The notes below the pieces were generated by a model. That model saw only the letters and a list, made by a program, of their open reading frames with translations, made no database searches and had not been told where the DNA came from. The translations under genes and the position numbers were made by a program. This document shows positions 42,074 through 51,112 of a stretch of DNA of 64,000 nt, one piece after another; the stretch's first letter is position 1, and the number at the start of each line of letters is the position of its first letter. The stretch covers positions 6,112,905-6,176,904 of the forward strand of contig NZ_CP036291.1 of NCBI RefSeq assembly GCF_007750855.1, written 5' to 3'. The stretch comes from Pirellulimonas nuda. GTDB taxonomy: Bacteria > Planctomycetota > Planctomycetia > Pirellulales > Lacipirellulaceae.

Positions 42074-45790
<3,717 letters not shown>

Positions 45791-45908
45791 GTTGGCTGAC
45801 GGAAGGGGGATGGTGGGGATGTGCGTTCGGCGGTGCAACGGATTGCAAAGTGTAAACCTTCCTTCGCATTGATTGGGGACGTTGAATCGCGTTAAATCGA
45901 TTTGCACG

Positions 45909-46202
45909 ATGACCAATAGAACGATGCTGCTGTTGGCAAGCGTGCTGCTGGTATTTCTGAGCACACTCGGTTGGGCGTACGCCGTTGTTTACATTGGTTT
46001 GTGGGGATTTGTATTGGGTGATGACAGGTTGGCTCAGGTCAACACGATTGCGGTTGTTAGCGCGTCCGTGGCGTCGCTTGCCGCAGCAGCCACCTTTGCT
46101 GTCGTTGCCCGTACGAGGGATTATTCCGTTGATGAACTTGTTCGAACGGTTGCACTCGCTTGCACGGCCCTACTAGTAGTTGTGGGGCTGCTCTGGCAGT
46201 AG
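45909..46202 (+). CDS. Small polytopic membrane protein between rpoB and rpoC
   Basis: This 97-residue product has three or four hydrophobic segments (LLLASVLLVFLSTLGWAYAV, AVVSASVASLAAAATFAVVA, VALACTALLVVVGLLW). I recognise no family. Codon choice and GC are lower than those of rpoB and rpoC, so it is probably an inserted gene. The ATG at 45909 is preferred to a TTG 12 codons upstream. Confidence 0.5.
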   Translation: MTNRTMLLLASVLLVFLSTLGWAYAVVYIGLWGFVLGDDRLAQVNTIAVVSASVASLAAAATFAVVARTRDYSVDELVRTVALACTALLVVVGLLWQ

Positions 46203-46287
46203 CGATGACAGAGATGCGTCACACGCGGTTGATGGCGAAGACAGCTACAGGATTAACGAGGTAAGGAGAACGTGCCGGCGGGGCAAC

Positions 46288-46755
46288 GGATTGCAAATTG
46301 ATCATTGCAAATTGCAAATTTGACGGTCCCGGGCATGAACTCGATTGAGTTGGGAGATCGTCTGCTGGAGTTTGCTGCTCGCGCCGCGAAGGCGGCGTAG
46401 AGCTTGCCAGACAGTCGTCTCGGAAGGCACGTTGCGGGACAGTTGATCCGAAGTTGCACATCGCCCGCTGTGAACTACCAAGAGGCTTGTGCGGCGGAGA
46501 GTCGAAAAGACTTCCCCCACAAGCTTGGGATTTGTTTGAAAGAGATTCGCGAAACGAGGGGCTGGCTGCGGCTTGCGGTAAAGACCGAACTGCTTACGCA
46601 GGGTCGTCTAGATGAGTGATCGATGAATCTGAGCAACTTGCCCGCATCATCGGCCAATCGATAGCGACCGCCAAAGGAATCACCAAGAAGGACGGATAGG
46701 TCGATCCATCCTTCAATTTGCAATTTGCAATGACCAATTTGCAATTTGCAATCCT
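46288..46755 (+). mobile_element. Inverted-repeat element carrying a decayed four-helix-bundle gene
   Basis: The left tract (46288-46323) reads GGATTGCAAATTGATCATTG and then GCAAATTGCAAATTTG. The right tract (46713-46755) reads TCAATTTGCAATTTGCAATG and then ACCAATTTGCAATTTGCAAT. The right tract is the degenerate reverse complement of the left. They bracket the pseudogene at 46335-46699, giving a 468-bp unit with inverted ends, inserted just ahead of the rpoC ribosome binding site. A 15-bp direct copy of GCAACGGATTGCAAA occurs at 45835 and 46283. No transposase is present. Confidence 0.65.
46335..46699 (+). pseudogene. Four-helix-bundle protein (S23 / 23S rRNA-IVP family), disrupted
   Basis: Translated in frame from the ATG it gives MNSIELGDRLLEFAARAA followed by a TAG at 46398. 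The same frame continues with RLGRHVAGQLIRSCTSPAVN, YQEACAAESRKDFPHKLG and ICLKEIRETRGWLRL, typical of the four-helix-bundle family. It then reaches a TGA at 46617, and the conserved end QLARIIGQSIATAKGITK appears in a shifted frame up to 46699. So one nonsense mutation and one frameshift are present. Family members occur as intervening-sequence proteins in 23S rRNA genes and resemble the Avd accessory protein of diversity-generating retroelements. Confidence 0.85.
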
Positions 46756-46771
46756 TCCATAGGAGTGAAAG

Positions 46772-51112
<4,341 letters not shown>

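Follow-up and report, generated by a model that had tools for sequence, protein, structure and literature searches.

A broken S23 gene between inverted tandem-word tracts in the rpoB-rpoC spacer of Pirellulimonas nuda, a probable dead copy of a minimal transposable element

The spacer between rpoB and rpoC of Pirellulimonas nuda contains what is probably a dead minimal transposable element, a unit of about 0.4 to 0.5 kb built from inverted tandem-word tracts and one S23 gene. Relatives of this unit move: at near-identical plasmid sites, arms and gene are either both there or both missing. The repeated word tracks the encoded S23 protein across genomes and phyla, and word ends that vary together with the protein suggest a new kind of mobile element.

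The window, by which we mean the entire 64-kb stretch of DNA that was analysed, carries at 46288–46755 a 468-nt structure in which inverted tracts of a tandem 7-mer, ATTTGCA, enclose a broken 23S_rRNA_IVP/S23 gene (Table 1). The arms match over 31 nt (46290–46320 against 46715–46745, 97% complementary), and extra words reach 46752. All six copies of ATTGCAAATTG in the window fall in the element, where dinucleotide shuffles expect 0.01, and AATTTGCAATTTGCAA with up to two mismatches has 29 matches genome-wide, compared with 0 for the backwards-read pattern. Folded as RNA, the element pairs end-to-end through its arms at −195.6 kcal/mol (z −6.2). The gene scores 45 bits against PF05635 in the genome search (window 46365–46631), above the family cut-off, and its longest open piece scores 42.2 bits (E 1e-10). 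Its frame, opening with ATG at 46335, is broken by TAG at 46398–46400 and TGA at 46617–46619; similarity continues beyond the TGA in another frame and ends at the TAG at 46697–46699. The arms, the PF05635 match and the stop codons together confirm the initial annotation of inverted word tracts around a disrupted S23/IVP gene. That annotation also had the element splitting rpoB from rpoC, and it does lie between them, but it fills just the right half of a 981-nt spacer.

Table 1. Features of the element and its neighbours, in window coordinates.
Feature	Position	Strand	Basis
Left arm, tandem word TTGCAAA (reverse complement of TTTGCAA), GATC interruption	46288..46320	+	Sequence
Decayed S23/IVP four-helix-bundle gene (PF05635)	46335..46699	+	Pfam, frame reading
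Right arm, tandem word ATTTGCA, opposite orientation, GACC interruption	46714..46754	+	Sequence
RNA-folded stretch, 473 nt	46285..46757	+	Arms pair end to end
rpoB, upstream neighbour	42074..45790	+	Pfam
rpoC, downstream neighbour	46772..51112	+	Pfam

The left half of the spacer (45791–46287) is other material, including an apparent remnant of another word tract. We also observed there a 109-codon ORF (45873–46202) that encodes hydrophobic stretches and did not match any Pfam family significantly. A near-identical direct repeat, CGGCGGxGCAACGGATTGCAAA (45828–45849 and 46276–46297, 448 nt apart), flanks this half and could be the trace of an earlier duplication or another element end. Past the rpoB stop, GGAAGGGGGATGGTGGGGATG at 45801–45821 looks by eye like the word tracts of GxxExxY elements in the rpoB-rpoC spacers of G007, G009 and G010. 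In the approximately 0.4 kb between the window arms, where the S23 remnant was the only frame scanned with Pfam, there was no known transposase, and specifically no Y1 (RAYT) gene; the S23 remnant stands alone between the arms. Rfam gave no match at 45000–48000, and the element lies outside the 23S rRNA gene.

The same architecture recurs in this genome. All six of its PF05635 matches lie inside inverted repeats, each with a word of its own: GGGGCGA, AGCTTTC, GGGGGCT-like, GTGAGTG/GTGAATA, AGATGAT and ATTTGCA. The GGGGGCT-like copy (L003) has strong arms and no clear 7-nt period (score 15 for period 7, 16 for period 8). Copies lie between genes that we take, from flanking sequence, to be sucC and sucD, pyrH and tsf, and two oxidoreductase subunits. 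Many of the S23 elements that we read are located at such operon junctions, and insertion between adjacent operon genes should do little harm.

Across the taxonomic family, PF05635 is present in 37 of 43 genomes. We assembled 35 loci from the genome search and 80 more picked among the matches listed, mainly by score and with weak ones included, and used 113 of these 115 (L053 and L112 had short flanks). The initial annotation had proposed looking for inverted word flanks on other S23 family members, and we found them at 92 of the 113 loci (IR score of at least 13), as against 1 of 442 offset controls, which are stretches beside the same genes with coding status unchecked (medians 17 and 8). 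A second control, ordinary ORFs of 270–520 nt from 640 kb of the window genome, reached this score in 2 of 118 cases. The best flank period was 7 at 99 loci, 8 at nine and another value at five. The period-7 flank score was 27.6, compared with 7.8 (sd 1.8) for shuffles, and 95 of 113 loci exceeded the largest shuffle; the other periods from 4 to 11 were at or near background (period 8: 10.2 vs 8.2). The ends are in general not of the AATTTGCA type, and S23 subfamilies instead have their own 7-nt, sometimes 8-nt, words. Two S23 elements of G031 (L113 and L114) have a 6-nt word, TCGTAC, and at L113 the right word tract is translated as an E/Y-rich C-terminal tail.

To what extent words follow the protein can be quantified. 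Protein distance and word similarity were correlated over 159 of 206 loci (Mantel Spearman −0.36, with 0 of 999 permutations as extreme), a set of 12,219 pairs that omits 342 pairs sharing outer flanks as well as loci with short flanks, stop codons within the match or IR below 11. Mean word similarity was 0.47 at protein distances below 0.3 and 0.04 above 0.5, and S23 pairs inside one genome averaged 0.07. For a cross-phylum set, we queried named genomes with one AGC-word S23 protein, and kept 80 of 416 relatives, which belong to Chloroflexota, Planctomycetota, Cyanobacteriota, Nitrospirota, Acidobacteriota, Bacteroidota, several lines of proteobacteria and other groups. Five were dropped, and in the 75 with usable flanks the best period was 7 at 61 loci and 8 at five. 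The pattern [AG]GC-N4-[AG]GC was present in both arms at 51 of these 75 loci, whose proteins are 53–66% identical; offset controls had it in 2 of 281 cases. Among the family loci, it occurred at 12 of 15 of the matching protein cluster vs 18 of 84 outside it. An IR of at least 13 was found in just 40 of the 75; at some loci the right arm starts within the last part of the gene, a portion that the flank test removes. DNA of a Dehalococcoidia MAG and a Desulfobacteraceae MAG is 82.6% identical across 368 nt spanning the S23 gene. Note that similarity between MAGs of different phyla in some cases extends little beyond the gene, and that MAG contamination is possible.

The evidence for movement comes from plasmids. 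With one S23 protein as query, tblastn matched 28 plasmid records, mostly cyanobacterial, and no phage record. Word arms were found in all 11 plasmid loci examined from these records (best period 7 in ten, 8 in one), and S23 neighbours include cas6-cas4, cas10-cmr3 and two ribonucleotide reductase subunits. Site 1 is filled in Trichormus variabilis and Scytonema and empty in Nostoc linckia and N. carneum, with 97–98% identity around it. The filled site reads AAAAAGTAAT, then the element, then TAATTAACAAA, and the empty site reads AAAAAGTAATTAACAAA, giving a 4–5 bp target duplication, (G)TAAT. The filled copies measure 424 and 410 nt, and their left arms differ by two words; the plasmid of Nostoc C052 has a truncated element remnant at this site.

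Site 2 is filled in three plasmids and empty in four; a fifth plasmid without S23 has a different ORF there. Its possible duplication, TTCTA, is itself word-like and reads TTCTG in one of the three filled copies. Site 3 is filled once, four plasmids have the exact empty junction GTAATG (an overlapping stop/start codon), and four more lack the element at diverged junctions; four of five letters are duplicated. Thus, the target duplication is clear at site 1 only and ambiguous at sites 2 and 3. Sites 2 and 3 are neighbouring junctions of one gene row, and the elements inserted in them have different words. At sites 4–6 (PCC 7003, Nostoc edaphicum and Aulosira), the element is missing in a relative and the junctions are too diverged to read; the cas10-cmr3 element of Picosynechococcus PCC 7003, for example, is missing from PCC 7002. 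This presence and absence of whole units in cyanobacterial plasmids, at the nucleotide level, supports the initial suggestion of a minimal mobile element.

The window copy itself is probably an old inherited insertion that is now dead. We located rpoC in 40 of the 43 family genomes and read 39 rpoB-rpoC spacers. Spacers without an S23 gene, which the initial annotation had proposed seeking in relatives, were found, with the gene in 3 of 39 only (the window genome, G015 and G023). Three others (G007, G009 and G010) have a GxxExxY-type PDDEXK_3 gene, and in several more we recognised by eye short word palindromes lacking a gene, or remnants; the remnant in G022 resembles a gene-less version of the G015 copy. 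The three rpoB-rpoC S23 genes cluster in a tree of 32 proteins with support 93/86, just under the program's 95 mark, and the window copy is therefore better read as an old insertion; we rejected a fresh jump. The window genus is represented by one genome, and the spacers of other genera are too diverged for a target duplication to be read. A sucC-sucD S23 element is likewise common to G000, G040 and G042, so some insertions are inherited, the rpoB-rpoC one probably being ancestral.

Copies without a gene are also found. Gene-less palindromes of the ATTTGCA word exist in the window genome. Those at L007, L008, L011, L013, L014, L018 and L022 all have the polarity of the window element, some of them with a decayed left arm, and the broken window copy is the only ATTTGCA-word S23 gene found in this genome. 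In a 704-kb sample of the genome, 112 inverted repeats passed the threshold and 14 had a periodic score of at least 18; a few of these 14 are probably chance in coding DNA, one encloses an intact GxxExxY gene, and others are gene-less palindromes of period 7 to 10. On the plasmid of Nostoc N6, a gene-less palindrome is nested in an S23 gene with the same word, and shows no clear target duplication. G031 has eight dispersed, internally deleted S23 copies (L344–L351) with nearly the same junction, in two slightly different forms. They sit within a larger palindromic unit whose flanks the copies also have in common, and a larger unit has therefore been amplified; we dropped them as clean proof of transposition.

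The GxxExxY nuclease (PF13366), which is unrelated to S23 and present in 39 of the 43 family genomes, is a second gene with word ends. Among 30 PF13366 loci, the best period was 9 in 14, 8 in 13, 10 in two and 11 in one, the word core is often CACGGAG-like, and 25 had an IR of at least 14, compared with 1 of 117 controls. GxxExxY (PDDEXK_3) genes within inverted words of period 8–9 were observed at L288:11856-12336 and L309–L338. This is a parallel element class with a known nuclease fold. GxxExxY numbers per genome track those of Y1 (rho 0.60; 0.54 with genome size allowed for, p 0.0002), which speaks for a role of Y1 in this class at least.

The best-surviving alternative, which we nonetheless consider unlikely, extends such a role to S23: the word palindromes would be MITE-like repeats moved by an unrelated host transposase (e.g. 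Y1/HUH), with S23 as cargo or regulator. Y1_Tnp occurs in 42 of the 43 family genomes, gene-less palindromes are common, and the other word-ended class follows Y1 number. Three of the six S23-free genomes have no Y1 or one weak match (G033, G008 and G017), but the other three (G013, G030 and G032) have 7, 7 and 2 matches. The number of S23 genes shows a weak relation to Y1 (rho 0.32, p 0.04) that disappears with genome size allowed for (rho 0.15, p 0.33), leaving a Y1 dependence of S23 unsupported. Furthermore, the words change with the S23 protein, which makes one host enzyme a poor explanation, and site 1 has a target duplication, whereas Y1 elements are not known to leave one.

A second alternative is that S23, as a structural relative of Avd, helps a reverse transcriptase of the host or of a retroelement copy the folded element RNA into new sites. 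The resemblance to Avd noted in the initial annotation holds at the level of fold: Foldseek placed S23 structures first and then DGR Avd and the DGR ribonucleoprotein (TM about 0.8, E 0.006 and above), with no resemblance to a recombinase. The end-to-end fold of the element RNA also agrees with this alternative. Against it, RVT_1 is missing from 14 of the 37 family genomes that carry S23, 11 of these 14 have at least three S23 matches, and the correlation between S23 and RVT_1 (rho 0.36, p 0.02) drops to 0.03 with genome size allowed for. The profile behind these counts may miss some reverse transcriptase families, and some assemblies are incomplete. No reverse transcriptase is present at the window locus, both RVT_1 matches of the genome being more than 400 kb from the element (the nearest at C1:5743798-5744421). 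As presence counts do not support a dependence of S23 on reverse transcriptase, we regard this alternative as improbable. Finally, the data can hardly be explained by ordinary small operon genes whose hairpins formed on the spot and serve in regulation or RNase III processing, even though some copies occupy the same site in several genera. This reading is already contradicted by the filled and empty plasmid sites with flanks 97–98% identical, by two junctions of one operon hit by differently worded elements, and by identical words in unrelated contexts across phyla; it would require the empty sites to be deletions restoring the original sequence exactly.

Returning to the transposable element, our best guess is that S23 recognises its own words. 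We propose that the protein would bind the word arms of its own element in folded form, either as RNA or as single-stranded DNA, and would cause an insertion accompanied by a short target duplication. Each word would then act as an address readable solely by the matching S23 subfamily, and palindromes without a gene would be non-autonomous copies that depend on S23 supplied in trans. Catalysis might be performed by S23 itself or by a recruited host enzyme; the element encodes no known recombinase. Six polar residues of S23 (Q, R, S, N, E and E) are near-invariant, each in 153 to 159 of 159 proteins, a set chosen by similarity, which favours conserved positions. This putative Q-R-S-N-E...E catalytic set, alongside words that vary, fits a shared activity plus variable recognition. 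A solved S23 relative from Xanthomonas forms five four-helix bundles, according to the title of the paper. On this view, 23S rRNA intervening sequences would represent insertions of this element into rRNA, and the window copy would be an old insertion between rpoB and rpoC whose reading frame is lost.

We also offer, more tentatively and as somewhat less than probable, a joint reading in which S23/IVP is a new kind of mobilisation protein and GxxExxY nucleases (8–9 nt words) are likewise. The two would form one word-ended element class, which would account at once for heptanucleotide repeats, for rRNA intervening sequences and for the 'orphan' S23 genes of cas operons. Each S23 would read a 7-nt word (8 in some clades) on its own half-kilobase element and on gene-less copies, and would insert these elements between operon genes and into rRNA across bacterial phyla. 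If true, a single cause would underlie four things that are generally considered separately: free-standing S23 genes, stray small genes in core operons, heptanucleotide repeats and rRNA intervening sequences. A protein-word code that can be tested, and of which nature supplies many variants, would exist in a fold common to DGR Avd, and the system might transpose without a known recombinase.

Several known systems resemble parts of this picture. Among the matches listed in a search of the open literature, which mostly does not cover subscription papers, we found no paper joining S23 genes, tandem word ends and mobility. The 23S rRNA intervening sequences share with the window element the S23 gene family, a size of about 0.4 kb and terminal inverted repeats, whereas the window copy lies outside rRNA. 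In Coxiella burnetii, the intervening sequence with its S23 ORF has a 28-bp terminal stem, and an origin by transposition is mentioned as a hypothesis; the parts of that account available to us do not mention tandem words, a word-protein link or a target duplication (PMC4990558). In our data, an S23 copy on an Azospirillum lipoferum plasmid lies inside bacterial LSU rRNA (RF02541) and has arms with best period 7. It is a single case, and BLAST with its own 23S revealed no 23S insertion among the examined loci besides L170.

The heptameric repeats of Xanthomonas and Nostoc are mostly intergenic tandem 7-mers, often in inverted pairs (70 in Xcc, 75 in Xac), and resemble the window element in these respects; the excerpts of the study that we consulted draw no link to S23, and treat the repeats as quadruplex-forming and generally away from mobile elements (PMC4692102). 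The Xanthomonas repeats are positionally stable between two relatives, with 90% between the same ORFs (PMC4692102, as excerpted), which counts against the mobile-element reading. Beggiatoaceae have TAACTGA heptamers, as far as the excerpt indicates (PMC4679880). Genes for 23S_rRNA_IVP have been noted in cas loci (18, one between cmr3 and cmr2) and are listed, in the part of the paper at hand, as a CRISPR-Cas-associated function (PMC3936711); two cas-locus S23 genes examined here, Pseudanabaena cas6-cas4 and Picosynechococcus PCC 7003 cas10-cmr3, have word arms. In Flavobacterium columnare, a four-helix-bundle gene between guanylate kinase and nicotinate-nucleotide adenylyltransferase appears, in the section seen, under phage elements (PMC5524665).

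DGR Avd (4dwl, 8ub7) has the same fold as S23, whereas the window element has no reverse transcriptase within 400 kb. The STRR repeats of cyanobacteria are comparable heptameric repeats. Parallels in organisation are REP/RAYT and MITE systems, which have short palindromes, gene-bearing and gene-less copies, and a palindrome sequence tied to the protein subfamily. In S23 elements, there is no match to Y1 or another known transposase between the arms, and the ends are tandem 7- or 8-nt words. The window element fits a MITE in structure, being short with inverted ends and no transposase, and presence and absence are known for its relatives only.
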